Source of the DNA: Micromonospora orduensis
Lineage (GTDB): Bacteria > Actinomycetota > Actinomycetes > Mycobacteriales > Micromonosporaceae
Assembly (NCBI RefSeq): GCF_006228125.1
Contig: NZ_VDFY01000138.1
Span: forward strand, 1-64,000
DNA: 64,000 nt
Direction: 5' to 3'
The translations under genes and the position numbers were made by a program. The notes beneath the pieces are model-generated. The model was not told the DNA's origin, searched no databases, and saw only the letters and a program-made list of their open reading frames with translations. Positions 26,388 to 45,958 of the stretch are shown piece after piece; the first letter of the stretch is position 1, and every line of letters starts with the position of its first letter.

Positions 26388-28235
26388 CTACCGGCGGCGG
26401 CGGGAGTCGGCCTCGGTGTCGAGCAGGTCGTTGAGCGTCAGCGCCGAATTGATCAACGACAGGTGGCTGAACGCCTGGGGATAGTTGCCGATCTGCTCCC
26501 CGGTCGCGGCGATCTCCTCGGCGTAGAGGCCGAGGTGGTTGCTGAAGGTGAACATCTTCTCGAACGTGAGCCGGGCGTCGTCGAGGCGGCCGGAACGGGC
26601 CAGCGCCTCGACGTACCAGAACGTGCACATGTTGAAGGTGCCCTCGTGGCCGGGCAGACCGTCGGGGGAGTGGACCGGGTCGTACCTGTGCACCAGGCTG
26701 TCGGAGACCAGTTCGCGTTCGATCGCCTCCAGGGTGGACTGCCACAGGGGATCGCTCGGCGTGACGAAACCGACCGCCGGCATGGCGAGCAACGCCGCGT
26801 CCAGCACGGCCTCGTCGTACGCCTGCACGAAGGTGCCGCGACCCCGGTCGTACCCGCGCTCCATGACCTGGTTGTAGATCCGGTTGCGTTGTTCGGACCA
26901 GCAGGTCAGGTCCCCCGGGCGGCCGGTGCGGGTGGCCAGACGGATGGCCCGATCCAACGCCACCCAGGACATCACCCGCCCGAACGTGTAGTTGCGGGGG
27001 TGGTGCCGGCTCTCCCAGATGCCGGCGTCGCGCTGATCCCAGTTGTGGCAGAGCCAGTCGACCAGCCGGACGGTGCTCTTCCACACCTGGTGTGAGACGC
27101 GGATCCCCTGCTCGTCGGCGAGATGCATGGCGTAGAGCGCCTCGCCGTGGATGTCGAGCTGGAGCTGGTCGGCGGCGCCGTTGCCGATCCGCACCGGCCG
27201 CGAGCCCCGGTAGCCCTCCAGGTGGTCGAGCACCTCCTCGTGCAGGTCGGAGGAGCCGTCCACCCGGTACATGATCTTCAGCGGGTCCTGGTGGTCGCCG
27301 GCCTCGCGGATCCGCTCGTCCAGCCAGTCCATGTACCGGCCGACCTCCTCGGTGAAGCCGAGGCCGAGCAGCGCGTGCACGGAGAACGAGGTGTCGCGCA
27401 CCCAGGTGTAGCGGTAGTCCCAGTTGCGGGTGCCGCCGACCAGTTCGGGGAGCGCGGCGGTGGGCGCGGCGATCATCGCGCCGGTCGGCGCGTACGTCAT
27501 GAGCTTCAGCGTGATGGCGGAGCGCTCGACCATCTCCCGCCAACGACCTGTGTAGCGGGAGCGTTCGAGCCAGCGCCGCCAGTAGTCCCTGGTCCACTCG
27601 AACATGCCCTGGATCTCCTCCGGCGGGAAGATCCGTGGCTCGGTGCCTGCCGTCTCCAGGACCACACCGCCGGTGTCGCCCTCGTTCAGGGTGCCGTACG
27701 CGACGAGGTCGCCGCCCTCGAGGCGGACGTCGCCGCGTTCGGCGAGCAGCCGTCGCACGGGGTCGACCGGGTTGAACGTCATCGTCCCGGACCGGCTGCG
27801 AAAGACGTAGCCGTTGTGGTGCCGCTCCAGCTGATGCTCTTCGCGGGCGTAGTCGAACCGCGGCCGGCACTCCACCCGGAACCGCATGCTCCCCCGGACC
27901 ATGGTGACGATGCGGACCAGGCGGTGCGCGTCGGTGGCCCGTTCGCCGGTGACCGGCATGAAGTCCATCACCTCGGCGACGCCGTCGGCACTGATGAACC
28001 GTGTGATCAGGATCGGCGTGCCGGGCAGGTAGAGCTGCTTGGTCACGTACTTCACGTCGTGCGGCGCGATCCGGAAGTAGCCGCCCTTCTCCTTGTCCAG
28101 CAGTGCGGCGAAGACGCTCGGCGAGTCGAACCGCGGCGCGCAGAACCAGTCGACCGTCCCGTCACACGTGACCAGCGCGGCGGTCTGCAGGTCGCCGATG
28201 AGTCCGTGATCCTCGATCGCCGGATAGCTGTCCAC
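26388..28235 (-). CDS. Glycoside hydrolase family 15 protein (glucoamylase/trehalase-like)
   Basis: This 615-residue protein matches bacterial GH15 enzymes, which hydrolyse alpha-glucosidic bonds such as those of trehalose or oligoglucans. It opens with the family's N-terminal beta-sandwich signature (AIEDHGLIGDLQTAALV, DGTVDWFCAPRFDSPS). It continues with NWDYRYTWVRDTSFS, the segment GIWESRHHPRNYTFGRVMSWVALDRA and GTFNMCTFWYVEAL, which surround the two acidic catalytic residues in this family. Start GTG 28235 has GGGGAGAG just upstream. It has no signal peptide, so it acts in the cytosol. It is probably a general carbon-storage or trehalose gene rather than part of a biosynthetic pathway. 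Confidence 0.92.
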   Translation of the reverse strand: MDSYPAIEDHGLIGDLQTAALVTCDGTVDWFCAPRFDSPSVFAALLDKEKGGYFRIAPHDVKYVTKQLYLPGTPILITRFISADGVAEVMDFMPVTGERATDAHRLVRIVTMVRGSMRFRVECRPRFDYAREEHQLERHHNGYVFRSRSGTMTFNPVDPVRRLLAERGDVRLEGGDLVAYGTLNEGDTGGVVLETAGTEPRIFPPEEIQGMFEWTRDYWRRWLERSRYTGRWREMVERSAITLKLMTYAPTGAMIAAPTAALPELVGGTRNWDYRYTWVRDTSFSVHALLGLGFTEEVGRYMDWLDERIREAGDHQDPLKIMYRVDGSSDLHEEVLDHLEGYRGSRPVRIGNGAADQLQLDIHGEALYAMHLADEQGIRVSHQVWKSTVRLVDWLCHNWDQRDAGIWESRHHPRNYTFGRVMSWVALDRAIRLATRTGRPGDLTCWSEQRNRIYNQVMERGYDRGRGTFVQAYDEAVLDAALLAMPAVGFVTPSDPLWQSTLEAIERELVSDSLVHRYDPVHSPDGLPGHEGTFNMCTFWYVEALARSGRLDDARLTFEKMFTFSNHLGLYAEEIAATGEQIGNYPQAFSHLSLINSALTLNDLLDTEADSRRRR

Positions 28236-28362: not shown

Positions 28363-29676
28363 TCAGGCTGGTTGGCGGCGTGGCGCCGCCACAGCGGGCA
28401 GGATCAGGCCGGTGACCAGGAACAGGGCGCCGAGGCCCAGCCAGCCGACGGTGGCATGGGGGACGACCAGGGTCGTGAGCAGCACGGGGCCGACGATCGA
28501 CTGAAGGGTCGTGCCGAGGCTGAACACCGAGAGATATTCGCCTCGCCGGTCCGGCGGTGCCAGTTCGAAGGAGATGCCCCAGGAACCCGCCGCCTGCCAC
28601 ATCTCCGCGCCGGTGAGCAGGATGACGGCCGCCACGATGAGGCTGGTGGCCACGATCGATGTCGTGCCGCTGGACAGCCCCAGCAGGAGGCAGCACCCGG
28701 CGAGGGCACCCGCGGCCCAGCGCATCCGACTGCTCGCCACAACGATGTCGTCGCATCCACGGGAGACGCGAACCTGCAGGAGTATGACGAGCACGGTGTT
28801 GACGAGAATGATCACGCCGGTCATCGGTGGCGGAGCCGAGGTGTGCATGATGATCCAGAGCGGGATCCCCACGGAGAGCAGGGTCATGTGCATGACGACG
28901 ATTCCGTTGAGGGCTGTCAGCGTCAGGTATCGGCCGTCGCGCAGTGACGCCAGGCTGTGCCACGGACCGGCCCGCCGGGCACTTGCCGTCGCGTTGAGCA
29001 GGGGGATCCGGGCGAGCAGTATTCCGGCCAGCAGGAACGAGGCCGCATTCGTCAGGATGATGCCGCGGAAGCCGGCGTTGGAGCCGAGCGCCACGAGCGT
29101 GGTGCCGGCCAGCGCACCGAGGGAGAAGCCCACATTGCGCACCACGCGGACCAGCGCCATGGTCCGGACGCGGTCGTTGTCGCCGACGGCGGCGGCGATG
29201 ACCGCCTGGTTGAGCGGCCCCGTCGCCTTCTCCGCCATGGCGAGCATGCAGGCGACGACGAGGAAGAAGGGGAAGCTTCCGGTGTACGCGTAGGCGACGA
29301 ACCACGCCGCGCGCCAGATCTGGAGGGCGACGAGAACTTTACGCGTGCCGATCCGGTCGGCGACGACGCCGATCGGTACGGTCGAGATCAGCCCCACGAT
29401 CCCCGCGGCGGAGAGCCCGAGGCCGATCTGGGCCGCCGTCAAGCCGGCCACCCGGGTGAGGAAGATGACGCTGCCGCTCAGGAAGATGCCGGTGCCGAAG
29501 GAGTCGATGAGCGCGACGAACACCAGCTGGTTTCCCGCCGCCGTCGACGGGAAGACGCGCGTCAACCGGGCGAACCGGGCACCCGCGGAGGCGTCAGGCT
29601 GCGGCCTCCCCTGCGCGCTGACGGCCACGTTCTCGGCATCGTTCGTGGAGTGCGGCGCGGGGCCCGGGGCGGTCAT
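28363..29676 (-). CDS. MFS transporter of the ATP-grasp block
   Basis: This 437-residue membrane protein has about 12 hydrophobic helices and the MFS loop motif GVVADRIGTRKV between helices 2 and 3. The N-terminal 35 residues are hydrophilic. ATG 29676 overlaps the stop of the ATP-grasp gene upstream as ATGA, so the two are co-translated. Export of the ligase product, or self-resistance, is the likely role. It resembles the efflux members of the superfamily rather than sugar uptake systems. Confidence 0.9.
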   Translation of the reverse strand: MTAPGPAPHSTNDAENVAVSAQGRPQPDASAGARFARLTRVFPSTAAGNQLVFVALIDSFGTGIFLSGSVIFLTRVAGLTAAQIGLGLSAAGIVGLISTVPIGVVADRIGTRKVLVALQIWRAAWFVAYAYTGSFPFFLVVACMLAMAEKATGPLNQAVIAAAVGDNDRVRTMALVRVVRNVGFSLGALAGTTLVALGSNAGFRGIILTNAASFLLAGILLARIPLLNATASARRAGPWHSLASLRDGRYLTLTALNGIVVMHMTLLSVGIPLWIIMHTSAPPPMTGVIILVNTVLVILLQVRVSRGCDDIVVASSRMRWAAGALAGCCLLLGLSSGTTSIVATSLIVAAVILLTGAEMWQAAGSWGISFELAPPDRRGEYLSVFSLGTTLQSIVGPVLLTTLVVPHATVGWLGLGALFLVTGLILPAVAAPRRQPA

Positions 29677-31001
29677 TCGCCGTACAGGACGTCGGCGAAC
29701 TCGTCCGTCCCGCTGACCCTGCGGTGCCAGTCGCGCAGTTCGGCGCCGGTCGTCGCGGCGGGAATGACAACGAGTCGCTCATCGAACCACTGCAACACCT
29801 CTGCCCTTCTTCGCTCCAACGACTGAGGGTCGGCGGCGTTGATCATCGCCATGCCGATCCGTGTGGTGGTGGATTCGGCGGCACCAGCCATCCGGTAGCC
29901 GATGGGTAGTTCGATACGGGCGAACGACACGTCGGGAAGGTCGGTGAGCTCCGCGGGAGACGGGCAGGCGGCCAGCGTGCCCGGCCGACTGGTGAAGTAG
30001 ACCGATCCGACGGTGCCGGTTCGAACCCGCACGTCCAGATCGGGCTTCCAGCCCAGTGCGCACTGCACGGCCGCCTCGCCGAGGTCGACGCCGAACTTCG
30101 CCAGGATCTCCTCCTCGGTGAGCGCACCGCCCCGGCGGGCAGCGCATTCACTGAAGACGACCCGACCGCTCAGCGGGTCGTGGAACAGTTCCATGTGGAA
30201 GACGCCATCCGTCAGGCCGAGCGCGTCAAGGGCCGCGCGCACCATGTCGTCAGCCGCCTGGTAGGCCCAGCTCTCCGAGTGCGGGTCGAACTTGCGCATG
30301 CTCAGCGGGGCGTTGTCCTGCAGGGTCGTCAGGCATGGCTGCTCGTAGCGGCCCAGGCCGTAGAACAGCAGTTCGCCATCGGACACGACGCCGTCGGCGG
30401 TCCACTCGTCACCGGTGACGAACTCCTCGAGGACGAAGGTGCGGGCGGAGATGCGCTGTTGCCGGTACCGGCGGGCGGTGGCGAGCAGATCGTCGATCCC
30501 GTCGACGACCGACGTGGTCTGGGTGGCCAGGCCGGTCACCGGCTTCAGGACGCCACGCTCGAACGGCATCGGGAAGTCCGGTTCCAGGGCGAAGATGTCC
30601 TCGATGAGGACGCTGCGCGCCGTGGCCAGGCCGGCGTCGGCGATGCGTTGCTTCTGCAGAAACTTGTCGCGGAACAGCACCGCGGTCGTGGGGCTGAGCA
30701 CCCTGGCGCCCAGGGCACGCCCGAGAACCGAGGCGGTGATCAGCAAGGGCTCGATGGTCGTCTGCACCGCGGTGAACTGGCGATCGCCGAATCCGGCGCG
30801 GTGCAGGGCGGTGAGAACGGCCTCGGGCTTGTGGTGATCCTCACAGAAGACCGGGATGGCGGGGGCGGGTATCTCCTGGAAGGCGAGGTCACGGTGCCGC
30901 GCTCCGTAGACCACGACGTGCGGAACGCCGAGCTTCCGGCAGGCCCGGAGAACGTAGCGATCAGGCGCGAGAATGAGCATCAGCTCCGATTCCGCGGGCA
31001 T
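29673..31001 (-). CDS. ATP-grasp ligase A
   Basis: This 442-residue protein has the ATP-grasp fold used to join a carboxylate to an amine or thiol through an acyl phosphate. Visible parts are an N-terminal Rossmann-like domain, TAVLFRDKFLQKQRIADAGL (about 110-130), the ATP-binding GVLKPVTGLATQT, the adenine-loop FVLEEFVTGDEWTADG and the metal-binding FSECAARRGG. It is similar to ligase B (LLFRDK...K, EEFIDGD, FCEIAARPGG), so both probably descend from one ancestor. GAGGAG lies four bases from the second ATG (31001), which I prefer to ATG 31004. It is co-translated with the MFS gene. The substrates are unknown; peptide-bond formation with an amino acid is usual. Confidence 0.9.
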   Translation of the reverse strand: MPAESELMLILAPDRYVLRACRKLGVPHVVVYGARHRDLAFQEIPAPAIPVFCEDHHKPEAVLTALHRAGFGDRQFTAVQTTIEPLLITASVLGRALGARVLSPTTAVLFRDKFLQKQRIADAGLATARSVLIEDIFALEPDFPMPFERGVLKPVTGLATQTTSVVDGIDDLLATARRYRQQRISARTFVLEEFVTGDEWTADGVVSDGELLFYGLGRYEQPCLTTLQDNAPLSMRKFDPHSESWAYQAADDMVRAALDALGLTDGVFHMELFHDPLSGRVVFSECAARRGGALTEEEILAKFGVDLGEAAVQCALGWKPDLDVRVRTGTVGSVYFTSRPGTLAACPSPAELTDLPDVSFARIELPIGYRMAGAAESTTTRIGMAMINAADPQSLERRRAEVLQWFDERLVVIPAATTGAELRDWHRRVSGTDEFADVLYGE

Positions 31002-31102
31002 CATTCTCCTCTGGTAGGCATTGTCCGTCCTTGACGTGAGGCGGATCCGAACGTTGCACGACCCGACCACAGGGCACATCCACTGTGGCGCACGGTACGA
31101 CT

Positions 31103-31630
31103 CTAGGCGATCTTCGCGGCGTCGTGGGCCCCGAGCGCGGCGGAGCAGCCGTCCGAATCGGACAGTGACTCGTCCAGGTACGTGCGCAGGCGCAAGGCGT
31201 ACGGGGCCTGCTCCTCGATCGACGCGTAACCGCGCCGAGGTGGGGAGGCGTATAGTTTGTCCCGGTCGTAGCGGGGGAAGACATGTTGGTGGAAGTGCCA
31301 CACGTCCTGGTGGCCGTCGGGTTCGTTGTGCTGCCGTGTCGAGGTGCCGGTGCAGCCGGGATACGTTGCCCGGATGGCTCGTGCGATGTGCTGTGAAAGG
31401 TCGAAGACCGCGTGGCCGAGGGACCTGGGAAGGTCGTACAGATTCTCGTGATGCTCGTTGGGCACCACGAGGATGTGGCCGAGGTTCGTAGGCCACATGC
31501 GTGGCGAGACAAAGGCAAACACGGCGGGGGTGCGCCAGACCAGAGTCGCCGGACTGGATAGATCGTTGTAACGCCCCCTCGTCAGGCCACAGAAGGGGCA
31601 GTCGTAACCGGCCGGTTCGTGATTGTACAC
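31103..31630 (-). CDS. HIT family nucleotide hydrolase/transferase
   Basis: This 175-residue protein of the histidine-triad superfamily acts on nucleotide alpha-phosphates by way of a covalent nucleotidyl-histidine. The signature is VWHFHQHVFPRY (H-F-H-Q-H-V-F) near residue 113. A CPFC pair near residue 11 recalls the zinc-binding HIT group. Start GTG 31630 reads into YNHEPAGYDCPFC. It lies about 100 bases upstream of ATP-grasp A on the same strand and is divergent from a phosphoesterase. In this block, full of nucleotide-handling folds, it may release or activate a nucleotidyl intermediate; a housekeeping role is also possible. Confidence 0.9.
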   Translation of the reverse strand: MYNHEPAGYDCPFCGLTRGRYNDLSSPATLVWRTPAVFAFVSPRMWPTNLGHILVVPNEHHENLYDLPRSLGHAVFDLSQHIARAIRATYPGCTGTSTRQHNEPDGHQDVWHFHQHVFPRYDRDKLYASPPRRGYASIEEQAPYALRLRTYLDESLSDSDGCSAALGAHDAAKIA

Positions 31631-31725
31631 CCTTTGATGGTAGCTGCCGAGACGTCAGGGTACCCGCCCCGCCGGTCGTCGGCGGTCCCTTTACGTCGAC
31701 AAGCGACGATGGCAGGATATGCCGG

Positions 31726-32469
31726 GTGACGATCATCGCGCACATAAGCGACACCCACTTCGACGGCGGTGGGCGCGCATTGGCCCGCGCTCGGCAGACT
31801 ATGGCCTTTCTGCGCGGCTGCAACCTTGACGTGATTCTCGTGACAGGCGATCTCGCGGACCACGGCACTGTCGAGGAATATGACGAGGTGAAAGCCGAGC
31901 TGGTGGCTGACATCCCCGTCCTGATGCTGCCCGGCAACCATGACGATCGGTCGGCGTACCGAAAGATATTGCTTGACGGCGATGGCGCGGCACCTATCAA
32001 TCAGCTGAAGCGTGCCGGTGGTCTGCTGTTCGCTCTCTGTGACTCCACCATTCCTGGCGAGGACGAGGGCCTGCTCGCGCCGGAGACCCTCGACTGGCTG
32101 GAAGGGGTTCTCGGCGCCGCCCAGGAGCCGGTCTTCGTCGCCCTCCACCACCATCCAATTCGACTGAACAACCCGCTCCTGGACGGCATCCGGCTCCGTA
32201 ACCCCGAGGATCTGGCCGCGGTGCTCCAGGCATCGTCCACCCCGCGGGCGGTCTTCTGCGGACATGCCCATGCTGCCGCCGCAGGGACTTTCGCAGGGCT
32301 GCCGTTGATCGCGGCACCGGGCATATTCTCGACCACCCGCCTACCCTGGACCACGACCGACGAGCTGGCTTGGGCAAACACTTTCGACCGTGATGATGTG
32401 CCCGGCGTGGTGTTCCACGTCGTTGAGGGCGGTGAATTGACAAGCCATTTTCGTAGCATCGGCAATTGA
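31726..32469 (+). CDS. Calcineurin-like metallophosphoesterase (cyclic-nucleotide phosphodiesterase type)
   Basis: This 247-residue dimetal phosphoesterase shows the full set of family motifs in order: HISDTHFD (D-x-H), VTGDLADHG (GD), GNHDDR (GNHD), ALHHHP and CGHAHAAAAG (GHxH). Its layout resembles the CpdA/GpdQ group, which cleaves cyclic nucleotides or glycerophosphodiesters. GTG 31726 is the only start that precedes VTIIAHISDTH closely. It starts 95 bases from the divergent HIT gene and is followed after about 100 bases by the large fusion gene on the same strand. Its place in the block suggests removal of a phosphate from a pathway intermediate, which is inference. Confidence 0.9.
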   Translation: MTIIAHISDTHFDGGGRALARARQTMAFLRGCNLDVILVTGDLADHGTVEEYDEVKAELVADIPVLMLPGNHDDRSAYRKILLDGDGAAPINQLKRAGGLLFALCDSTIPGEDEGLLAPETLDWLEGVLGAAQEPVFVALHHHPIRLNNPLLDGIRLRNPEDLAAVLQASSTPRAVFCGHAHAAAAGTFAGLPLIAAPGIFSTTRLPWTTTDELAWANTFDRDDVPGVVFHVVEGGELTSHFRSIGN

Positions 32470-32573
32470 CCGCACCGCTGCGACGCGGAGGACACCTGTC
32501 CATTATTCAGTAGCGTGCCGACCACCGCGAATCGTAGGAGTCGCACGTCGCGCTTCACCATGGGGGAACTGTC

Positions 32574-35057
32574 GTGATTCTGACCGGTAGCGAGATCGAG
32601 AAGGAATGGGCCCAGGGTCGTATCACCATCGAGCCGTTCACACCTGAGCAGGTGAATCCAAACAGTTACAACTTCAGGCTGGGCAAGACCTTGCGGGTCT
32701 ACTCTGGCGAGACGCTGAGCCCTCGGACTCCAAATGAGTTCGTCGAAATCGAGATTCCGGACGACGGCTACGTACTCGAGCCGGGCAAGCTCTACCTTGC
32801 CCACACGATCGAGGTCCTCGGCAGCGACCACTACGCACCGACCTTCGCCGCCAGGTCATCCGTGGCGCGGCTCGGGATGTTCATCAACCTGTCCGCGAGC
32901 CTCGGCGACATCGGATACAAGGGGCAATGGACCCTGCAGCTCTACACGTTGAACCGGGTCCGTGTCTATACCGGCCTCAACATCGGCCAGATGATGTGGT
33001 GGAAGCCCCAGGGGGACGTCGATCTCTACGAAGGAAAATATCAGGGCGCGACCGGGCCGCGGTCCAGCGACATCCACGTCGACTACGACAAACAATTCGC
33101 GAGACAGCGTTTCCCGGGCCTGGGGGCGAGCGTATCCGTCGCCGACGTCGGTCCGAAGTTCGCCGCACTCGCGGCGAGCAGCCGTGAATTCTCCGTACCG
33201 CCAGCGTTCTGTATCGGCGCAGGCGAGTTCGCCGGCGCCCTCTCCGCCGAGCAGACCGCCGAGCTGACCGACGCGTTCGCCGACCTGCGCGCGACCGTCG
33301 GCGCGTTCTACACCGAATCGCTGGAGCGAATCCAGAGCATCGGCGCGCAGATTCGCTTCCCGCAGTCGGCGCACTCCCTGCTTCGGGCGCGACTGAAGGA
33401 GATCTTCGGCGATCGGACTGACCTCCGCTTCGCCGTCAGATCGTCTGGACTGGACGAGGACGCGGACGCGAGCAGCCTCGCCGGCGTGCATCACAGCGTG
33501 CTGAATGTGTGCTCCTTCGCCGGGATCGTCGCGGCCATCGAGCGGTGCTGGGCGTCCTACTACGACGCGCCGGCTGTCGCCGCGCGTCTGCGTGCGGACA
33601 ACTATGACGTCACACCGAGGCTCGCCGTGATCGTTCAGTCCATGGTGCAGCCGGTCATCGCCGGTGTCGCGTTCACCGGACTGGAGGCGGCCGATCCGGA
33701 GCGGGTGGTCATCGAACACGTCGAGGGCCTCGCCGATCAGCTTGTCGCGGGCGTCGTCGCGCCGGTCCGAACCACGTCGGACGCGGTCGCGGCCACCCCC
33801 GACTCCCGGTTGGCAGAGGTGGTGGCGCTCGCACGAGCGTTGCGGGACAGGCGTGGCCACCACGTCGACGTCGAGTGGGCGGCCGACGACAGCGGCGTTC
33901 ATCTGATCCAGGTGCGCCCGCTCACCGCGACCATCGATCGGCCGCGCGCCGCGGCCGAACCGGTGGGGCAGGCCGTCCCGATGTACGTCGAGGAGGTGCC
34001 GCCGACGTTCCATCTCGGTGACGTCGCGCGGGTGTACGCCAACTACGTCGCCAAGCGCAGCTCCGCCTACCGCCTGGCCGCCGCGAATGGCGCCGGCACC
34101 GGAGCGGCCTGGGTGATCCAGTTCAACGGGCGGGGCCTGCATGACGAGGCGACCGTCGCCGGGCTGCGGGACGTACTCCGAACGGGTGCCGCCCCCGAAT
34201 GCGTGCTGGACCTCGGCGACCAACTCCGGCAGATCGTGCTGCCGAAGGAGGACGTGCTCGCGCGCCTGGCCGAACTGGCCGGGGCCCGGGCCAGCGACAC
34301 CGAGTTGCGTGCGGTCATCATTCGCGACTATCTGCGGGGTGAGCTGGGGATGATCTCCCGCAACTCCGGTGCCGGCATCGTGGTGGAGTTCACCGCCGAT
34401 GGGCTCATGGCCCTCAACCGCGGCACCGCGGGTGGCGAGACGATCGTCGTCGCCGACCTGGAGCGGCCGTTCGACGATCCGGGCAACCTGAACGCCGCTC
34501 CTGGAGCCGAACCGCTGCTTCCGCACCTGCACACCCTGGCGCGTCTGACCGGTGCGATGTCCGCCAAGCACGGCCCGGTCACGTTGGAGTGGGTTCTCAG
34601 CGCGGGGGAACCCTATTTCGTCGACTACTCCGTACGCGGTGCCGACGAGCTCGTGATGTCCTCGGAGGGCGCGGTGCTGATCTCGCCCGGCACCGCGCAC
34701 GGCACGCTGCTCCGACTGGAGGAGGATGAGCTGCTCAGCAGGATGTCGATCGGCCCCGCGATCAGCATCGAGGCCTCCACCAGCGAGGCGGCCCGGGATG
34801 GCATGGCCATGATCCTGGACAAGGTTCTGTCGCTACCAGAGCGCCCGATCATTCACGCGGCGCTACCGTACGCCGCCCTGTCGGTCCTCATCGGACACGT
34901 GGCCGGATTCGTCTTCGAGAAGGGATCCACTCTGGGTCACCTCCCCATCCTGCTGCGAGAGTCCGGTGTTCCCGCTGTCGCCGTACCCGGCTTCACCGCC
35001 GATGGTGAGGTCATCATCAGCGACGCCAGCGTGGTCACTGTCCAGCGGCTGCCCTGA
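32574..35057 (+). CDS. Fusion of dCTP-deaminase-fold domain to PEP-synthase/PPDK-like domains
   Basis: This 827-residue protein joins unrelated enzymes. Residues 1-170 form a dCTP-deaminase/dUTPase-fold domain (MILTGSEIEKEW, PNSYNFRLG, ARSSVARLG). The glutamate that acts as general base in dCTP deaminases (context L-E-F or L-E-I) is Gln here (TLQLY, about residue 123), so deamination is doubtful. Residues about 200-470 form the ATP-binding half of PEP synthase/PPDK-like enzymes (FAVRSSGLDEDADASSLAG, VVIEHVEGLADQLVAG, HLIQVRPLT). The C-terminus is the swivelling phosphohistidine domain (GHVAGFVFEKGSTLGHLPILL, then RESGVPAVAV) with a His in the expected place. That machinery transfers a phosphate from ATP via His, as in rifampicin phosphotransferase. 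GTG 32574 has GGGGG seven bases upstream. The tail overlaps ATP-grasp B convergently. Confidence 0.85.
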   Translation: MILTGSEIEKEWAQGRITIEPFTPEQVNPNSYNFRLGKTLRVYSGETLSPRTPNEFVEIEIPDDGYVLEPGKLYLAHTIEVLGSDHYAPTFAARSSVARLGMFINLSASLGDIGYKGQWTLQLYTLNRVRVYTGLNIGQMMWWKPQGDVDLYEGKYQGATGPRSSDIHVDYDKQFARQRFPGLGASVSVADVGPKFAALAASSREFSVPPAFCIGAGEFAGALSAEQTAELTDAFADLRATVGAFYTESLERIQSIGAQIRFPQSAHSLLRARLKEIFGDRTDLRFAVRSSGLDEDADASSLAGVHHSVLNVCSFAGIVAAIERCWASYYDAPAVAARLRADNYDVTPRLAVIVQSMVQPVIAGVAFTGLEAADPERVVIEHVEGLADQLVAGVVAPVRTTSDAVAATPDSRLAEVVALARALRDRRGHHVDVEWAADDSGVHLIQVRPLTATIDRPRAAAEPVGQAVPMYVEEVPPTFHLGDVARVYANYVAKRSSAYRLAAANGAGTGAAWVIQFNGRGLHDEATVAGLRDVLRTGAAPECVLDLGDQLRQIVLPKEDVLARLAELAGARASDTELRAVIIRDYLRGELGMISRNSGAGIVVEFTADGLMALNRGTAGGETIVVADLERPFDDPGNLNAAPGAEPLLPHLHTLARLTGAMSAKHGPVTLEWVLSAGEPYFVDYSVRGADELVMSSEGAVLISPGTAHGTLLRLEEDELLSRMSIGPAISIEASTSEAARDGMAMILDKVLSLPERPIIHAALPYAALSVLIGHVAGFVFEKGSTLGHLPILLRESGVPAVAVPGFTADGEVIISDASVVTVQRLP

Positions 35058-36234
35058 GGCGCTCGACTCTGGCCATGAAATCAGCCGGGCTGCCGCCACT
35101 CAGGATGAATCGGTGCGCGTAGTCCGTGCTGTGCAGGGGAAGGTGGTGGTTGCCGCCGGCAGCCGGGCGGTACTCGTACTCCGCGACGCCGAGCTCGCCA
35201 CACTCCTGCGCGGTGAACTCGGTCGGCACGCGCCCATCGGGATAGATGCCGACCCGGCCCCACACCGTCTGGTCGCCCGCTGACGTCGGCGGGCGGGCGA
35301 CCGTCGGTGGCAGGTCGGCCTCGATCCGAATCGCCGCCTCCCGGAGGTGCACACCGTACCGGCGCAGGACCATGCGATCGATGCCGCCCCCACCGGGGCG
35401 CGCTGCGATCTCGCAGAACACCAGCCTGCCCTGCGGAGTGTGGAAGACCTCGAGATGGGTTACCCCCGACCCGAGCCCGAGGGCACCCACGACCCGTTCG
35501 TGCATGTCGGCGATCCGCTGGGTCAGGTCCCCGTTCGGCAGTAGATAGCTGCCCGCCATCGCTCCGGGAGCGACGTTGCCCGGACGGGCATGGTATTGCC
35601 CGACACTTGTGTGAAGTACGCGCCCGTCCCGGACGATCCCATCGCAGTGGAGCATGTCTCCGTCGATGAACTCCTCGATCTCGTACTCGCCGGCCCGCGC
35701 GCCGATCCGACGCCAGACCTCGCGCGCCGTTGGCAGCGAGTCGACGACATGTGTCTGGTTCGACCCGACTCCGCAGCGCGGCTTGATGACATGGCGGCCC
35801 CGGCTCCAGTCCACTGCCGCCAGGTCGCCGTCGTCGTCGAGAGCACGAAACTCCGGGACGGTCACACCATGAGCGTGAACCGCCCTCTTCATCCGGACCT
35901 TGTCCCGGAACAGCAGCGCGGTGTCCAGTTGAAGGCCGGGCAGCCCGTGGGCGGTCCGTAGCCGGGCGGCCATGATGACCATCTTCTCGTGCAACGCGAC
36001 GATGCCCCGAATCCCGTTCGCCCCGACGATCCAGTCGCAGGTCCGCTCCACCAGGTCGTCGTTGATGAAGTCGCACACGGTGGTATGGCGGAAGTCGCGG
36101 GAATTCACGCCCTCCACCAGCCATGGATTGGTCACCAGATGTGGCTCGATGTCGGCAAGTGGCAGCAGGCATCGTGCGCTGTCGAAGAGGGCGCGGTGAG
36201 GGTCCCGACTGATGATCAACAGCGGTTTCCTCAC
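35035..36234 (-). CDS. ATP-grasp ligase B
   Basis: This 399-residue ATP-grasp protein has TALLFRDKVRMKRAVHAHGV (about 105-125), the ATP-binding HVIKPRCGVGSNQTHVV, the adenine loop EIEEFIDGDMLHCDG and the metal-binding VFCEIAARPGGGG. It is the closest relative of ligase A in the window and would likewise activate a carboxylate as an acyl phosphate and join it to a nucleophile. GTG 36234 overlaps the stop of ligase C as GTGA, so the two ligases are made together. Its 3' end overlaps the end of the convergent fusion gene by 23 bases. Confidence 0.9.
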   Translation of the reverse strand: MRKPLLIISRDPHRALFDSARCLLPLADIEPHLVTNPWLVEGVNSRDFRHTTVCDFINDDLVERTCDWIVGANGIRGIVALHEKMVIMAARLRTAHGLPGLQLDTALLFRDKVRMKRAVHAHGVTVPEFRALDDDGDLAAVDWSRGRHVIKPRCGVGSNQTHVVDSLPTAREVWRRIGARAGEYEIEEFIDGDMLHCDGIVRDGRVLHTSVGQYHARPGNVAPGAMAGSYLLPNGDLTQRIADMHERVVGALGLGSGVTHLEVFHTPQGRLVFCEIAARPGGGGIDRMVLRRYGVHLREAAIRIEADLPPTVARPPTSAGDQTVWGRVGIYPDGRVPTEFTAQECGELGVAEYEYRPAAGGNHHLPLHSTDYAHRFILSGGSPADFMARVERLRAAAGQ

Positions 36235-37448
36235 CCTCGGGCTCCGGTCGGCCGGCAGACCACGTCGATGCCCGCAGCCAGCCTGCGCGCGGCCGCGAGG
36301 ACCCGCGAAGGATCGGCTCCGGAAACACTCCCACTGCCCACGCGTGCGGACGAGCTCGTCAGTACGGCGACCTCATCGCCCGGTCTGACGAACGACCGCA
36401 CGTCCTCAACCGTCGCGTCCGCGAACTCCAGCCTCGGAAGTGCGACCGACTGCACCACACCCTCCGGCGCGGTGGCGAAGGCGATCGCGGCGGCAGCCGC
36501 GGCCGGACGATCCTGAGGACCGGGCCCGCCAAGACCGAGCGGCCACCCCATGCTCCAGCGCTGAAGGTCCGTCCCGGTCACGAGGCGAACGAGGTGCGGG
36601 ATCCCGTCGCCGCCGATCCGGTTGTGTGACTCGATGACGCGGATCCCGCCGTCGATCAGCTTGAACTCGGTGTGAGCCGGCCCATCGACCAGCCCCACGA
36701 CGTCAAGGAACTCGGTCAGCTGGTCCTGAATGACCGGTACCGCCGAGACGTCCAGCGAGGGTGCGGGCACCACGTGCGCCAGCTCGACGAACGACGGGCC
36801 GGTGTGCTTTTCGACGAGCGCGACAATGCGGTGTACGCCGCCGACACTGAAGCTCTCGGCACTGTACTCCTGGCCCGGGAGATACTCCTCCAGCACCTGG
36901 CCGGAGGGATCGCCCTGCGCCAGCAGATCGGCGACGCTCTCGACGAGCACGACGCCCCGGCTGCCGGAACTCGCGCGGGGCTTGAGAATCGCCGGCCGTC
37001 CGCCCCAGCTGAGAAAGGTGTCGACAGCGTCCTCAAGGCTCGCCGGGACGGACGCCCGGACCGTGAGATGTGGGGCCTTGCTCTCCAGTAACGCTCTCAT
37101 CTTCGCCTTGTCCCGCAGCGTCTCCACCACCTCCAGCGGGGTGCCGGCGAGGCCGAGGCGCGCATTGGCGAGGGCCGCCGGGCCGAGTCCGTCCTCGCGT
37201 ACGCTGACGACGGCGTCGGGCGCCAGCGGCCGGAGAACCTGCTCCAGGAAGCTCGGAAAGGATTCCGCGGTGTAGTCGACCGTGTAGTAGGTCGACCGTA
37301 CGGAGCCCGGCTCGATGAACTGCTCGAGTGGACTCCCTGGTTTCTGGACGTGGATGAGTCGGCAGCCGAGGCGCCTCGCGACGGCGGCGATCTGCCCGCT
37401 GGCGCCGAGTACGACAAGTTGCCGGTCCTCAGAAGGAGGCTGCGACAT
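36231..37448 (-). CDS. ATP-grasp ligase C
   Basis: This 405-residue ATP-grasp protein is of a different subgroup from A and B. It has VVLGASGQIAAVARRLG at the start, TLRDKAKMRALL, the ATP-binding AILKPRASSGSRGVVLV, VLEEYLPGQEYSAESFSVGG and the metal-binding VIESHNRIGGDGIPHLV (E-x-N), close to the carbamoyl-phosphate/biotin-carboxylase-like amino acid ligases such as BacD. I chose ATG 37448 because GGGAG lies eight bases upstream; ATG 37463 lacks such a site. It is the second gene of a leftward operon: diiron oxygenase, ligase C, ligase B. Amino acid ligation is expected, partner unknown. Confidence 0.9.
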   Translation of the reverse strand: MSQPPSEDRQLVVLGASGQIAAVARRLGCRLIHVQKPGSPLEQFIEPGSVRSTYYTVDYTAESFPSFLEQVLRPLAPDAVVSVREDGLGPAALANARLGLAGTPLEVVETLRDKAKMRALLESKAPHLTVRASVPASLEDAVDTFLSWGGRPAILKPRASSGSRGVVLVESVADLLAQGDPSGQVLEEYLPGQEYSAESFSVGGVHRIVALVEKHTGPSFVELAHVVPAPSLDVSAVPVIQDQLTEFLDVVGLVDGPAHTEFKLIDGGIRVIESHNRIGGDGIPHLVRLVTGTDLQRWSMGWPLGLGGPGPQDRPAAAAAAIAFATAPEGVVQSVALPRLEFADATVEDVRSFVRPGDEVAVLTSSSARVGSGSVSGADPSRVLAAARRLAAGIDVVCRPTGARG

Positions 37449-37500
37449 ACGACGGGCTCCCATCGCGTACGGGTGGTCGACTGGCGTTGCTGGTGGGAGA

Positions 37501-38442
37501 TCAGAAATCCAGCAGCCCCGACTCCGCGAAGCCTTCCCGGGCTCCCGGCTGATCCAGCACCCCGTAGTCCTCGAGAATCCCGATGGTCCGCTCGGCCGCG
37601 GACCGGATGCCGGCTGTCACCGACTCCTGGTCGTACGACTCGGCAATGATCGACCGCGCGGCGGCCGGCGAGAACCCGATTTCCCTGAGTGCCGACGAGG
37701 CGGATCTCGTCGCCGGCTGCAACGACCTGATGATGAGGTCGGGCAGGAGGGCCGCGACCACCTGTCTGTCGCCGGGTTCGAGTTGGCCCCACAGGCGGCC
37801 GAAGAAGTCGGCGAAGTAGACGTGGTGCCGCCCCTCGTCGATCGCGTGATCGCGGGCAATCTGCCGGACCAGTGACACGACGTTCGGATCCTTCGGGATA
37901 TCGACGAGCAGCCCGGTTATGAGCGTCTCGAAGACAAAGACCTGGACCAGCTGGACAAGCCGCCGATGCCGCGGATGGTCTGCGCCGATCCGGTCGAGGT
38001 TGTCGAGGAAGGGCTGGAAATCATACGGCAGGGCCTCAATGCCGGAGCGTGTCTGGATCTGCTCGACGGCGTCAACGCTGTAGAGAGCGTGGTAGCTCTC
38101 GTCGACCAGAATCTTGTAGGCGTCCATGCGCACGCGGCTCGGCACCTCGATGCCGCAGTCCTGCTCGGCGATCAGTTTGGTTGCCCGGCAGACGACCCCG
38201 ACCTCGAACGCCTTCGTGAAGTTCAGCCATTGGTACAGGTGCTGGGCAAGGAGATATCGTTTGATCACTTCATCGGTCTCGGCAACGGCCGGGTGCGCCA
38301 GGTGGGTCACCAGGTGCCGGGGAAAGAAGTCCTTGAGGATGTCGTCGTCGGTAGAAACAACTCGACGCGGGCTTCCACGTACTCCCGACTTCTCATACCA
38401 GGATTCGAGAACTCTAGGATTGGCTTGACGCCATTCGATCAT
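37501..38442 (-). CDS. AurF-like diiron N-oxygenase
   Basis: This 313-residue helical protein shows the carboxylate and histidine ligands of the AurF-type diiron oxygenases: an early Glu in FTKAFEVG, DESYHALYS (E-x-x-H), FETLITG, and DHAIDEGRHHVYF (D-x-x-x-D-E-x-x-H). Relatives oxidise amines to hydroxylamine, nitroso or nitro groups; others carry out different oxygenations. ATG 38442 opens MIEWRQANPR. It heads the leftward operon with ligases C and B, so an amino group is probably N-oxygenated before or after ligation. The family assignment is good, the reaction is inferred. Confidence 0.82.
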   Translation of the reverse strand: MIEWRQANPRVLESWYEKSGVRGSPRRVVSTDDDILKDFFPRHLVTHLAHPAVAETDEVIKRYLLAQHLYQWLNFTKAFEVGVVCRATKLIAEQDCGIEVPSRVRMDAYKILVDESYHALYSVDAVEQIQTRSGIEALPYDFQPFLDNLDRIGADHPRHRRLVQLVQVFVFETLITGLLVDIPKDPNVVSLVRQIARDHAIDEGRHHVYFADFFGRLWGQLEPGDRQVVAALLPDLIIRSLQPATRSASSALREIGFSPAAARSIIAESYDQESVTAGIRSAAERTIGILEDYGVLDQPGAREGFAESGLLDF

Positions 38443-38696
38443 GATGAACGACCCCCGTCGATGACGATCGATCATGACACTCGGCGCCGTGCCATGTCAA
38501 CCGACCACCGGGAAGCGGAACACACTGTGGACCTTCGGCGCCGAAAAGTGCCCCTGTCGAAAACGCCGCCGAGCAGGGATGATGCAAGATCGAGTTCACC
38601 CGTGAACCATCCGGGTCGGTGTGCGGGACCTTGCTCGGGACACACTCCACCGTGGTCGGTGTGTAGGCTGGCCCGCAGTTTGCGTCGGCGAGCACC

Positions 38697-39983
38697 GTGA
38701 CCGGTCTTGCTGCACCACGGGGGGATGCGTTGAGTCAGGAAACAGCTGCGGCGAAGCCCGCTCAGGTGCGCCGGATCCTTGTCCTGGGCGACCCGGCTCT
38801 CCAATATTCACTGGTGCCGCGCAAGCGGCTTCCTATTGTCACGATCGATCTTCCGGCGGACCCGGATGGTGGCGACCGGGCTGTCGAATATCTGCGGCCG
38901 ATCGACACGGCGTCCGTCTCGATCCGTCTTCTTCCGCAGGATTCGGCTCCGGTCGAGGTGCCCGTCGAGGTGGCGCGACCCACCTGGTCTGGCTGCGCGC
39001 TCTCGGAATCGATGCGGACACACCTACGGTCGGTGTGGCCGGGCGCCGCGGCCACCGAGAGCATTGAATTCCTGTCGCCGGTCATGGTGCTGCGGCTCCA
39101 TGAGTCGCAGGAGCGGACGAGGGTGGAAGTGCTCGCCTGCACACGTCTGCGCGAAGTCGGGGCGGTGTTCGCGCGAGTCGCGGAATGCGAGTTCCCGTCC
39201 ACGGCGACGGCTGACGACGTGGTCCCGGTTGCGCTGAAGTCGGCGGGAAACCTGCGCGAGCATGTGGCCGTCGAGAATCACGTTTTCCGCAATCTTGTAC
39301 CCGGCGTTGAGATCGAGAACAAGATCACCCTTCGTGGCGACGTGTCGATCTGGCGGTTGACCTCGGAGATGGCTTCTCAGGTCGGTAGTGCCTCCTTTCC
39401 TGGCTTCATCCCGGATGTCGGCAACGAAGTGCAACGCTGGGAGGTCTTCCAGCACACGTTCGAGGTGCTGAATCCGGCCGCGGAGCGCGGCTACATCGCC
39501 TTCCAGGAGCAGCCGTCCGGGGCCTTCATGCTCAAGCACAAGATTTTCGCCGAGGACACGCTCCGGCGCGTCGAGACCTTCCGGCACAACCTCGCCGTGC
39601 CCGGCAGAGACTTCGCCGCCTTCCTTGACCTCGAGTATCCGCACCTCACCTTCCGGGCCCTGCGCACCTTCAGCCGTACGCGTTTCGACGTCAACCTGGA
39701 GTCCAGCGCGACCGGTCACTTCTTCGGCATCGAGATCGACGAGGTGCGTACGGCCGGGGATGAGCACGTCCTTCGGCAGGCCGAGATCGCCTACCACCGG
39801 TCGCGGATACACGACGGGCTCGACGTCGCCACCGTCGAACCCGAACTTGAACGCCTGACCAACCTCGTCGACAGCTACCTGGCCCGCAACGGCGTGGACC
39901 GAGAGCGGACGTTCTATTCGAAGCTCTCGTTCCTGCGCGACATCGAGAGCCCGAGCGGGGCCACGTCACCCACGAGGTGCTGA
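38697..39983 (+). CDS. CYTH-like triphosphate-binding protein with extra N-terminal domain
   Basis: This 428-residue protein has a C-terminal half that looks like a CYTH (triphosphate tunnel) domain. It has the entry motif E-x-E-x-K at 205-209 (GVEIENKITL), then basic residues in FMLKHKIF, RALRTFSRTRF and an acidic strand FFGIEIDEV. CYTH proteins hydrolyse or bind inorganic triphosphate, thiamine triphosphate or nucleoside triphosphates. The first 190 residues match nothing I know. GTG 38697 is the longest start; TTG 38730 has a run of six G five bases upstream and may be the true one. It leads a rightward trio with a P-loop kinase and a dCTP-deaminase-like gene. Confidence 0.65.
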   Translation: MTGLAAPRGDALSQETAAAKPAQVRRILVLGDPALQYSLVPRKRLPIVTIDLPADPDGGDRAVEYLRPIDTASVSIRLLPQDSAPVEVPVEVARPTWSGCALSESMRTHLRSVWPGAAATESIEFLSPVMVLRLHESQERTRVEVLACTRLREVGAVFARVAECEFPSTATADDVVPVALKSAGNLREHVAVENHVFRNLVPGVEIENKITLRGDVSIWRLTSEMASQVGSASFPGFIPDVGNEVQRWEVFQHTFEVLNPAAERGYIAFQEQPSGAFMLKHKIFAEDTLRRVETFRHNLAVPGRDFAAFLDLEYPHLTFRALRTFSRTRFDVNLESSATGHFFGIEIDEVRTAGDEHVLRQAEIAYHRSRIHDGLDVATVEPELERLTNLVDSYLARNGVDRERTFYSKLSFLRDIESPSGATSPTRC

Positions 39984-40016
39984 TCGCCAACAAACATCTG
40001 GGGGAGGTGCGAATCC

Positions 40017-40553
40017 GTGCGTATTTCGATCATCGGGTTGGCGGGTTGTGGCAAGTCGACCTCTGCCGGGCTGATTGAGGAGTTCGCGCAGGAGCTCGGC
40101 CGGACGTACGCCACCGTCAAGCTCGCCAAACCGTTGTACGACCTGCAGGCCCAGGTCTATCGGGCGGCGCGGGTCAAGGTTCCCGCTGGGGCACAGGACC
40201 AGATCCTGATGGAGTCCCTGGCCGACTCCATGCGTCGCATCAGGCCAGAGTCCCTGGTCGACGACTTCCTGACCCGGTTGGCCTCGACAGACGCCGACAT
40301 CGTGGTCAACGACGACCTGCGTGACCCGTTCGTCGATGCCGTGGCCCTGCGTGCCCACGGGTTCCGGGTGCTGCGAGTCACGGCTGCGCCGGAGGTGCGG
40401 GAAAAGAGGTTGGCCGGGCGCGGCGACACCAGCAGAGCGGACCAGTCGACGAGCGATCTCGACTTGATCGAGCCGGACGCCGTCCTGGACAACAGTGGTG
40501 ACCTCATGGCGCACCGCGACGCTGTGCGTAGGATTGTGCGGAGCTGGATGTGA
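40017..40553 (+). CDS. Small P-loop kinase (nucleotide kinase-like)
   Basis: This 178-residue protein begins with a Walker A loop, ISIIGLAGCGKSTSAG at residues 3-18. It continues with LAKPLYDLQAQV, a Walker-B-like DADIVVNDDLRDP and an LxVTAAPEVREKRLAGR segment resembling the lid region of deoxynucleoside monophosphate and dephospho-CoA kinases. It would phosphorylate a small acceptor with ATP. GTG 40017 has GGGGGAGG upstream. It overlaps the following dCTP-deaminase-like gene by four bases. A nucleotide or nucleotide-like acceptor fits both the fold and the neighbours, but is not shown. Confidence 0.8.
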   Translation: MRISIIGLAGCGKSTSAGLIEEFAQELGRTYATVKLAKPLYDLQAQVYRAARVKVPAGAQDQILMESLADSMRRIRPESLVDDFLTRLASTDADIVVNDDLRDPFVDAVALRAHGFRVLRVTAAPEVREKRLAGRGDTSRADQSTSDLDLIEPDAVLDNSGDLMAHRDAVRRIVRSWM

Positions 40554-41092
40554 TACTCACTGGCCGTGAAATTCACCGCGAGGTCCTTGCGGGCCGCATC
40601 CACATCGACGACTTCGAAGCGGAGCGTCTGGAGCCCAACAGCTACGGCTTCCGGCTGGCCCGCGAGATCATCTCCTACGAGACGGACGTGATCGATGCTC
40701 GGTCACCGATCGCGTCCCGAACGACCATCATGGACGATGGCGGGATGGTGCTCACGCCGGGGCGGTTCTACCTCGGTGGGACCATGGAAGCGATGGGCAG
40801 CCCGCACTACGCTGCCACCCTCTACGCCTGCCGCTCCGTGTCGACACTCGGCATCTGGATCCAGTTTTCGGCACCGCTCGGTCACAGCGGTGCCATCTTC
40901 CCGTGGACGTTGGAGATGGCCGTGGCCGCGCCGGTCCGCCTGTTTCCCGGCATGGTCATCGGGAAGTTGGCGTTCTGGGCGATGCAGGGCTGCTCGGTGG
41001 GCTATGCCGGGAAATACAGCGGTTCAGCCTCGGCTGTTCCGTCGCGACTGAGCCTGGACGCCGTGCCGCCCACGAATCGGGCTCTGCCGTAG
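40550..41092 (+). CDS. Free-standing dCTP-deaminase-fold protein
   Basis: This 180-residue protein belongs to the dCTP deaminase/dUTPase superfamily, whose trimers bind pyrimidine nucleotides between subunits. It shares with the fusion protein at 32574 the opening MILTGxEI, the RI-x-I-x-x-F segment and PNSYxFRL. Here the catalytic-type Glu is kept (PWTLEMAV), but the phosphate-binding R-S-S is R-S-V (CRSVSTLG) and the usual acidic residue before the Glu strand is not evident (LGHSGAIF). It is thus also atypical. GTG 40550 overlaps the kinase stop as GTGA. Placement within a biosynthetic operon argues for a specialised substrate or a non-catalytic nucleotide-binding role. Confidence 0.85.
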   Translation: MILTGREIHREVLAGRIHIDDFEAERLEPNSYGFRLAREIISYETDVIDARSPIASRTTIMDDGGMVLTPGRFYLGGTMEAMGSPHYAATLYACRSVSTLGIWIQFSAPLGHSGAIFPWTLEMAVAAPVRLFPGMVIGKLAFWAMQGCSVGYAGKYSGSASAVPSRLSLDAVPPTNRALP

Positions 41093-44813: not shown

Positions 44814-45833
44814 ATGCTGGGCAGAAGATCCGTCAGGAGCCCGCGTACCCTCGCCGCGCCGGTGCCGGCGTTCGCCGCCGCCGCGGTGACGCTGCTCGTG
44901 CTCACGGGCTGTGGGGGTGAGCCGGTGGACGCGGCAGCCCCGGCGCCCCAGGGCCCGGCCACCTTCGGTCGGGAGCGGGCCGCGCTGGTGCTCACCGCCT
45001 TCGACCAGGCCGACTCGGCCGCCTCGGTCGCCGGTGACGTGGAGGCGCTGCGGACCCAGGAGGTACCACCCTCACTGGACCTCAGCATCGCCGCGGTCCG
45101 CCGGGCCGCCTACAACCAGCGCCCGCAACCGTCGTTCCAGCACATCAACCCGGCCTTCGCGGTGCCGCCCGGCGACCCGGCCTGCTTCCTCACCACGGCC
45201 ACCCTCAGGCTCGCCGGATCGGAGCTGGCACCCACCGACACCAGCCAGTTCGTGCTGGGCGCCGACGGCCAGTGGAAGCTCAGCCACAACGTCCAGATCA
45301 CCCAACCGTCGCTGGTGGTGGCCCGGAGCATCGACGGCCGCCCCGCCACCGAGGGCGGCACGGCCCTGGACGAGACCAGCCGCCGGGCCCTCGCCGCCGA
45401 AGTGTTCGCCCGCAGCATCGGATCCACGACGAGCAACCGGTCCCTCGTCGCGTCCAGCCCGCTGCTCGACGGCCAGTTCGCCGGCGGGTGGGAGGTCTAC
45501 GGCCAGCAGCTCGCCGGTGCCGGCGCGACGGTGCAGCGGACCATGGACAAGGCGGAGTGGTCGGACTGCGCGGTCGCCGTGCCGGCCGGCACGCTGGCGT
45601 TCCTGACCGTCCACGCCACCGACACCCTGCGCCCGGCGCCCGGCGGTCCCACCACCGTCCGGATGGTGCCGCAGAGCCCGGACCTGATCGCCACCGGCCA
45701 CCGCACGGCGGTGAGCGGAAAGTCGATCCGGGTCACCCGGGTGGAGACCTTCCTGCTGCTCGTACCGACGCAGATCACCGGCACCTCGGTGCTCGGGCTC
45801 AACGACACCGCGCTGACCGTCACCGCCGGCTGA
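44814..45833 (+). CDS. Predicted lipoprotein of unknown function
   Basis: This 339-residue exported protein has a basic N-terminus, a hydrophobic stretch and the lipobox LVLTGC with Cys33 as the lipidated residue, then an Ala/Pro-rich linker. The rest is soluble and rich in beta-type segments, with no family I recognise. ATG 44814 has GGAGG five bases upstream, preferred over ATG 44802. It sits between the regulator and the cyclodehydratase gene. It could be an immunity or envelope-sensing partner of the exported RiPP; this is only positional inference. Confidence 0.75.
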   Translation: MLGRRSVRSPRTLAAPVPAFAAAAVTLLVLTGCGGEPVDAAAPAPQGPATFGRERAALVLTAFDQADSAASVAGDVEALRTQEVPPSLDLSIAAVRRAAYNQRPQPSFQHINPAFAVPPGDPACFLTTATLRLAGSELAPTDTSQFVLGADGQWKLSHNVQITQPSLVVARSIDGRPATEGGTALDETSRRALAAEVFARSIGSTTSNRSLVASSPLLDGQFAGGWEVYGQQLAGAGATVQRTMDKAEWSDCAVAVPAGTLAFLTVHATDTLRPAPGGPTTVRMVPQSPDLIATGHRTAVSGKSIRVTRVETFLLLVPTQITGTSVLGLNDTALTVTAG

Positions 45834-45958
45834 CCCGCCCGCCGCCGACGGCAGAAACCGGTGGCATCACTCGGGATCGGACGACCCGGACCGCGACGAT
45901 GGCAGCAGCCGTGATCGCCGGCGGGGCCACGGTCCGGCCACCAGGCTCGGGAGGAAGC

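Follow-up and report, generated by a model that had tools for sequence, protein, structure and literature searches.

In a 64,000-nucleotide stretch of Micromonospora orduensis DNA (assembly GCF_006228125.1, contig NZ_VDFY01000138.1, positions 1 to 64,000; hereafter the window), eleven adjacent genes at 28363-41092 form a block that we read, on balance, as one self-contained biosynthetic cluster. Its product would be a small exported molecule, likely an antimetabolite of peptide (or peptide-nucleotide) type that contains a phosphorus-nitrogen (P-N) bond, and the pathway would be built around a phaseolotoxin-type core. At the centre of the block stand a protein in which a dCTP deaminase (DCD) domain is fused to a pyruvate phosphate dikinase (PPDK)-like part, and a second DCD protein, DCD2. 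What is new here, as judged from sequence, is the complementary character of the two DCDs and the combination, in an actinomycete, of a phaseolotoxin-type core with ATP-grasp ligases, an AurF-like oxygenase and a HIT protein of the block's own. All eleven genes counted in the original prediction are present, and its general view of a biosynthetic block combining ATP-grasp ligation with nucleotide and phosphoryl enzymes is supported.

Core and accessory genes across related loci

The fusion gene (32574-35057, plus strand) encodes a product matching PF22769, PF01326 and, under its cut-off, PF00391. Three further genes on the same strand encode a CYTH/triphosphate-tunnel protein with an N-terminal extension (38697-39983), a P-loop nucleotide-kinase-like protein (40017-40553; PF13238 at 26.9 bits, under the cut-off of 29.4; profile match to the AdkA-like 3lw7, E = 1.8e-8) and DCD2 (40550-41092; PF22769 at 84.8 bits). 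A scan of one genome per species yielded 57 loci, 48 of them with the PPDK part. Open reading frames (ORFs) were called in these loci and clustered, profiles were built and each locus was scored; the presence profiles thus come from the same loci that they count. A plasmid locus with one DCD in view (L079) was left out of the locus counts.

Within the well-flanked set, the 37 PPDK loci in which 7 kb or more of sequence flanks the PPDK part on each side, DCD2 and the kinase were found in every locus and the CYTH protein in 36. These were followed by an AP-type phosphodiesterase (33/37), an HprK-like protein (31/37), HAD (28/37), DUF6001 and DUF6031 (27/37 each), a START-like protein (25/37), a desaturase and a class III aminotransferase (15/37 each), ATP-grasp (14/37), an Rv0805-like phosphoesterase (12/37) and AurF (0/37). 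Over all 48 PPDK loci, CYTH was present in 45, the kinase in 44, ATP-grasp in 17 and AurF in two (L020 and L021). The nine scan loci without PPDK contained CYTH in one case and the kinase in three, and, as a check, the DCD-only loci L070, L071, L073, L074, L075 and L081 matched no other profile. DCD and PPDK are fused in 26 of the 48 loci (25 scored by script, plus L037, whose variant of the motif escaped the script) and separate in 22. The core occurs in Actinomycetota, Pseudomonas, Variovorax, Burkholderia, Paenibacillus and other taxa.

By these co-occurrence counts, we take the conserved core to be the fusion, DCD2, the kinase and the CYTH protein, with the ligases and AurF as add-ons. The neighbourhood test proposed with the original prediction speaks against a general tie of the ligases and the oxygenase to the fusion (ATP-grasp in 14 and AurF in none of the well-flanked loci). 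The same test bears out the CYTH gene as a companion of the fusion (36/37), and ligases B and C with AurF as companions inside the window's own subclade (window, L020 and L021); even there, recurrence of the full set is not clear, since ligase A and the exporter are not clearly kept.

In this subclade, nine genes (HIT, phosphoesterase, fusion, ligase B, ligase C, AurF, CYTH, kinase and DCD2) recur in Micromonospora veneta (L021/L110) at 73-90% identity, HIT at 73%, and eight recur in Nonomuraea cypriaca (L020) at 86-93%, where HIT is absent or lies beyond the contig end. Ligase B is 73-87% identical in these relatives. The major facilitator superfamily (MFS) protein of the M. veneta cluster is only 42% identical to that of the window, and its third ATP-grasp protein resembles ligase A (26% identity) no more than it does ligase C (30%). 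Ligase A and the MFS gene were not seen in L020, and ligase A has no clear counterpart in L020 or L110. Gene order also varies: L020 keeps fusion-ligB-ligC-AurF with DCD2-kinase-CYTH inverted, and in L021 the ligases, AurF and MFS are situated beyond the DCD2-kinase-CYTH piece. Because nine genes recur in M. veneta and eight in N. cypriaca in rearranged orders, the grouping in the window is, on sequence grounds, more than chance. GH15, LuxR and P450 genes had no match in L020 and L021, both short contigs. A sample of 300 genomes from the window's family, the window's own among them, contains 13 with a match to the fusion at E = 1e-40; in three, the match extends over almost the entire protein. 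PPDK-type matches were also observed in the family genomes G075 and G136.

Some observations concern the accessory genes of the wider set. DUF6001 and DUF6031 occur in 31 of the 48 PPDK loci (for example at L062:4474-6095). DUF6001 has faint nucleotidyltransferase-like matches and is fused to an AP-superfamily phosphodiesterase in a Streptomyces locus (L024:14521-17307). In L104 and L109, CYTH homologues lie next to ATP-grasp genes, and the stretch examined contains neither PPDK nor DCD.

The DCD pair and the proteins around it

Both DCD domains of the window agree with the dCTP deaminase family in fold family and length, but depart from it at the active site. In an alignment to solved DCDs, the fusion carries Gln122 in place of Glu138 of E. 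coli dCTP deaminase and retains the Ser111 and Arg115 equivalents of the RSSxxR motif. DCD2 keeps the catalytic Glu and has lost the RSSxAR motif, which reads CRSVST and offers no equivalent of Ser111 or Arg115. The PDB contains E145Q and E145A mutants of the Methanocaldococcus jannaschii enzyme, whose E145 we take to be the position of the catalytic Glu and of Gln122 in the fusion.

This division recurs widely. In a table of 64 loci (the 57 scan loci, five plasmid loci, the window and the Pseudomonas genome G611), a single Glu copy is paired with a single Gln copy in 60; the exceptions are L032 and L061 (Gln copy only), L077 (an extra copy) and L081 (Met for Gln). A Glu copy is visible in 48 PPDK-bearing loci (46 scan loci, the window and G611); it lacks the motif Arg in all of them, and their Gln copy reads RSS[VI]AR without exception. 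The 13 loci without PPDK (nine scan, four plasmid) include 10 Glu copies that keep the motif Arg. Plasmid locus L077, with a partial PPDK match, holds one Glu copy of each sort, and the copy near the PPDK piece is the one without Arg. An active site of the dUTPase/DCD fold draws its motif from one subunit and its catalytic residue from another. Because the half-sites are split and sites are shared between subunits in this fold, the pair looks like an obligate heteromer, complementary rather than autonomous. The Gln/Glu split offers a sharp and testable enzyme hypothesis.

A second, uncharacterised DCD-pair cassette, consisting of the kinase, a Glu-DCD and a Gln-DCD without PPDK, was seen in L065, L068, L080 and L082. 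In the last two, both plasmids, it adjoins methyltransferase and glycosyltransferase genes.

Of 7996 candidates scored in a protein search with the fusion, 219 were relatives at an E of 0.001 or lower; among the matches listed, the closest outside its own genome came from Micromonospora orduensis at 97% identity. In 24 aligned fusion proteins, picked from the 120 relatives listed, His789 (the histidine of PEP-utilising enzymes), R289-S290-S291, S301, A303, G304 and Q122 are invariant. The fold is predicted to combine a part like rifampin phosphotransferase (RPH), phosphoenolpyruvate (PEP) synthase (PEPS) and PPDK with a DCD part; the model is weak in the DCD part (pTM 0.52), and hence no geometry was derived from it. 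The fusion combines PPDK_N with a phosphohistidine domain and its catalytic His, as expected of an L-glutamine kinase. PEP synthase and rifampin phosphotransferase share this ATP-grasp PPDK_N and phosphohistidine architecture, but differ in their gene neighbours, and the sequence matches to them span the ATP-binding part.

Searches of Pfam, NCBIfam and PDB sequences did not detect the family of the CYTH protein, which is assigned from motifs and predicted fold. EXEXK, KxK and RxR are invariant across 26 aligned sequences (the window protein and 25 of the 46 homologues listed), and the predicted model (pLDDT 84.9) has AtTTM3 (TTM3) and YgiF as its best Foldseek matches. With a predicted triphosphate-tunnel fold and EXEXK, the two features that define the family, we place the gene product in it.

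Phaseolotoxin and phosphorus-nitrogen chemistry

The original prediction knew of no characterised cluster with this set of genes. In the cluster of Pseudomonas syringae for the plant toxin phaseolotoxin (Pht, argK-tox), however, two DCDs and a PPDK stand consecutively and ATP-grasp ligases accompany them (PMC3927611, PMC4530439). Its annotated genes include phtF (argD aminotransferase), phtH and desI (desaturases), phtJ and phtK (dCTP deaminases) and phtL (PPDK), phtJ, phtK and phtL being consecutive, as well as phtP (HAD), amtA, phtS (adenylylsulfate kinase) and phtU (L-amino acid ligase) (PMC3927611). PhtQ and PhtU are ATP-grasp enzymes, of which PhtQ couples PSOrn with Ala-hArg; deletion of phtL or phtQ abolished the toxin, PSOrn was still produced by phtQ mutants, and the formation of the three P-N bonds of phaseolotoxin is called poorly understood (PMC4530439). 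PhtL has been postulated to form the N-P bond (postulate cited in PMC11278893), and PhtB was modelled as CYTH-like at 54% confidence and PhtA as P-loop (PMC5453526).

The window block resembles this cluster in bringing together two DCDs and a PPDK-like part (fusion and DCD2) and in its ATP-grasp peptide ligases, three in the window (ligase B under the Pfam cut-off) against phtQ and phtU. It differs in the fusion of one DCD to PPDK, in possessing a third ligase, AurF, HIT and a phosphoesterase, and in lacking desaturases, the argD aminotransferase, amidinotransferase, HAD and resistant ornithine carbamoyltransferase (OTCase); no amidinotransferase (amtA) or resistant OTCase (argK) domain was seen among the eleven genes. 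The P-loop kinase, compared as a PhtS candidate, had no match to the adenylylsulfate kinase (APS kinase) family in Pfam or NCBIfam. Because several Pht features are absent, the block shares the Pht core but is not classed as a Pht member. Close to phtF-phtL in gene order are the Pseudomonas loci L057, L058, L062 and L076, which read aminotransferase, START-like, reductase, desaturase, DCD-Glu, DCD-Gln, PPDK. The desaturase, in L057 detected by profile only, is a distant relative of the guanitoxin arginine hydroxylase, and no amidinotransferase was seen in the partial Pfam annotation of L062. Mangotoxin was set aside on titles, abstract starts and a passage on the mgo genes (PMC3927611).

P-N bond formation by a PPDK-like enzyme has a precedent in Cj1418, once annotated as PEP synthase or PPDK, which is an L-glutamine kinase and the first enzyme shown to transfer phosphate straight onto an amide nitrogen (PMC10971088). 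The Campylobacter O-methyl phosphoramidate pathway, to which Cj1418 belongs, proceeds through a cytidine diphosphoramidate, HINT proteins are phosphoramidases that hydrolyse P-N bonds, and EM2487 and 1100-50 are Streptomyces pyrimidine nucleotides with a hydroxylamine phosphoramidate (PMC6429109). We liken the fusion to Cj1418 by description, as a PPDK/PEP-synthase-like enzyme making a P-N bond; the window protein differs in bearing a DCD domain, and no capsule genes were recognised in the block. The DCD-DCD-PPDK cluster of Pseudomonas G611 holds a second CTP synthase gene (L089:8354-10015; G611:C4:51354-53015), 60% identical to the other copy of that genome, which may serve precursor supply or may be a resistant target like argK for phaseolotoxin. 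Because of the PPDK motifs and fold, the pyrimidine-nucleotide fold of the DCDs and this second CTP synthase, we infer P-N chemistry on a cytidine-type nucleotide.

In the pathway that we favour, the PPDK-like domain would load phosphate from ATP onto His789 and then phosphorylate the nitrogen of an amide or amine, as Cj1418 does and as postulated for PhtL. The two DCD chains would form a heteromer with a composite site, to which the fusion contributes RSSxAR and DCD2 the Glu, and this site may hold or transform a pyrimidine nucleotide bearing the phosphorus group, with the kinase and the CYTH protein tuning the phosphorylation of that nucleotide. The HIT protein and the phosphoesterase may free or detoxify nucleotide phosphoramidates, the ATP-grasp ligases would couple the warhead amino acid to other amino acids, the AurF-like enzyme would oxidise a nitrogen, and the MFS protein would export the product. 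A nucleotide-like scaffold and an N-oxygenated group in the product, as originally predicted, are possible. If the core is shared with Pht, the making of the P-N bond could be studied by comparing dozens of natural variants, of which many occur in cultured actinomycetes, and the core would serve as a genome-mining handle for rare P-N antimetabolites.

A bolder proposal, which we put forward only tentatively, is that the core represents a widespread unrecognised bacterial P-N cassette, in which a degenerate, complementary and non-deaminating DCD heteromer acts on a cytidine-type nucleotide by transferring groups of nitrogen or phosphorus, and in which a glutamine-kinase-like domain, often fused to a DCD, feeds this heteromer. 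In the window, where AurF and HIT join the core, the cassette might then make phosphoramidate peptides or nucleotides of a new, N-oxygenated class, with bonding akin to EM2487 and 1100-50. No gene cluster for these two compounds turned up, although no search was aimed at one. Among the open-licence PMC papers listed, none reports the cassette in actinobacteria or outside Pseudomonas, as far as titles and abstract starts show.

Several points weigh against a phaseolotoxin-type P-N pathway. The likeness to PhtJ, PhtK and PhtL is drawn from published annotation and gene order, the Pseudomonas loci have a reductase where phtH is annotated as a second desaturase, and none of the eleven genes was recognisable as a sulfation gene. 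The composite-site geometry of DCD/dUTPase trimers enters as general background, and the further Glu copy of L077, about 11 kb from the PPDK piece, keeps RSSIGR. Of the 300 family genomes, 10 carry CYTH, and in six of these no PPDK was seen in a stretch of 6 to 15 kb. In G180, CYTH, kinase and PPDK occur together, and 16 kb of sequence gave no DCD match. Window positions 20001-56000 contain no HAD, DUF6001, DUF6031 or AP-type phosphodiesterase (in 27 to 33 of the 37 well-flanked relatives), and no desaturase or aminotransferase (15/37 each), FAdesat and AT3 profiles giving no match. Because accessory genes common in relatives are missing from the window, its block may make something else. In addition, the PPDK family matches are to PigC/RedH, PEP synthase and rifampin phosphotransferase, and the domain could phosphorylate oxygen or serve as a PigC-type ligase. 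The HprK-like protein and DUF6001 had no match in the window's whole genome, in a search without positive control.

The strongest competitor is the pathway to a peptidyl or aminoacyl nucleotide of the original prediction, in which DCD, kinase and CYTH would build a modified pyrimidine nucleotide, the ligases add amino acids, AurF N-oxygenate and PPDK activate or phosphorylate oxygen with no P-N bond. Several nucleotide- or triphosphate-binding folds within one block agree with it, as do the DCD pair and kinase of plasmids L080 and L082, which sit without PPDK beside glycosyltransferase and methyltransferase genes. We nevertheless hold it to be unlikely: no nucleoside-forming enzyme was recognised in the block, and order and content resemble those of the Pht P-N cluster, whose product as published is a P-N peptide without a nucleotide (PMC4530439, PMC11278893).

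Alternatively, the PPDK domain could be an ATP-dependent ligase of PigC/RedH type that drives a condensation through phosphorylation of an acid or alcohol of small size, with the DCD as mere scaffold. PigC (E = 8e-31) and RedH (E = 5e-30) are indeed the best NCBIfam matches of the PPDK_N region, far under their cut-offs, but the best stretch is limited to the ATP-binding region of the PPDK part, and the conserved pairing with DCD2 and the kinase would be left unexplained; we regard this as improbable. Judged from gene neighbourhoods, the least probable reading is that the core serves nucleotide signalling or phage defence and that ligases and AurF adjoin it by chance: dCTP deaminases do participate in phage defence and some DCD pairs sit on plasmids, but in relatives of the window the core is again accompanied by ligases B and C, AurF and the phosphoesterase (in M. 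veneta also by HIT), and other core loci bear aminotransferase, desaturase or transporter genes.

Remaining genes of the block and its surroundings

The predicted assignments of CYTH, HIT, P-loop kinase, AurF-like, DCD and ATP-grasp proteins held, and a metallophosphoesterase that had gone unnamed is identified here (31726-32469, plus strand; PF00149, E = 9.9e-18; best PDB match Rv0805, 2hy1, E = 1.8e-23). On the minus strand lie the MFS exporter (28363-29676; PF07690, E = 2.4e-27), the LAL_C2-like ATP-grasp ligase A (29673-31004; PF13535 at 28.6 bits, cut-off 27; PF18603 at 24.1, under its cut-off) and the HIT/HINT-type protein (31103-31630; PF01230 at 47.9 bits, cut-off 21.5). The latter has a CxxC motif and the HxHxHxx triad in the form HFHQHVF, and its PDB relatives are HIT/HINT proteins, including the adenosine 5'-monophosphoramidase 6iq1 (E = 9e-5).

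Also on the minus strand are ATP-grasp ligase B (35035-36234; PF13535 at 23.7 bits, under the cut-off of 27, with weak matches to NCBIfam ATP-grasp models), the LAL_C2 ATP-grasp ligase C (36231-37463; PF13535 at 41.5 and PF18603 at 39.5 bits, both over cut-off) and the AurF-like di-iron oxygenase (37501-38475, alternative start 38442; PF11583 at 72.2 bits, cut-off 29.6). The oxygenase aligns to AurF (3chh) and retains all seven Glu/His positions that we take to be the iron ligands. It shares these and PF11583 with the p-aminobenzoate N-oxygenase AurF, but similarity is low (PDB sequence match, E = 3e-4). The ORFs at 31997-32503 (minus) and 37966-38697 (plus) matched no family and were rejected as wrong frames. 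A phage or plasmid origin was likewise rejected: the phage collection gave no match and plasmid matches span at most 32% of the fusion.

The many 4-base overlaps that had been described amount to three gene pairs (MFS/ligase A, ligase B/ligase C and kinase/DCD2), and the fusion and ligase B overlap tail to tail by 23 bases. A gap to the right, given before as 700 bases, does exist and measures 558 bases to the longest ORF of a LuxR-type regulator (41651) or about 790 to its composition-based start. The left neighbour of the block is a GH15 hydrolase (26388-28235). Farther left, at 17778-25538, a P450 gene and nonribosomal peptide synthetase genes that include MbtH parts seem to form a separate cluster, and to the right of the LuxR-type regulator a YcaO cyclodehydratase gene (45272-48235) probably marks a separate cluster for a ribosomally synthesized and post-translationally modified peptide.

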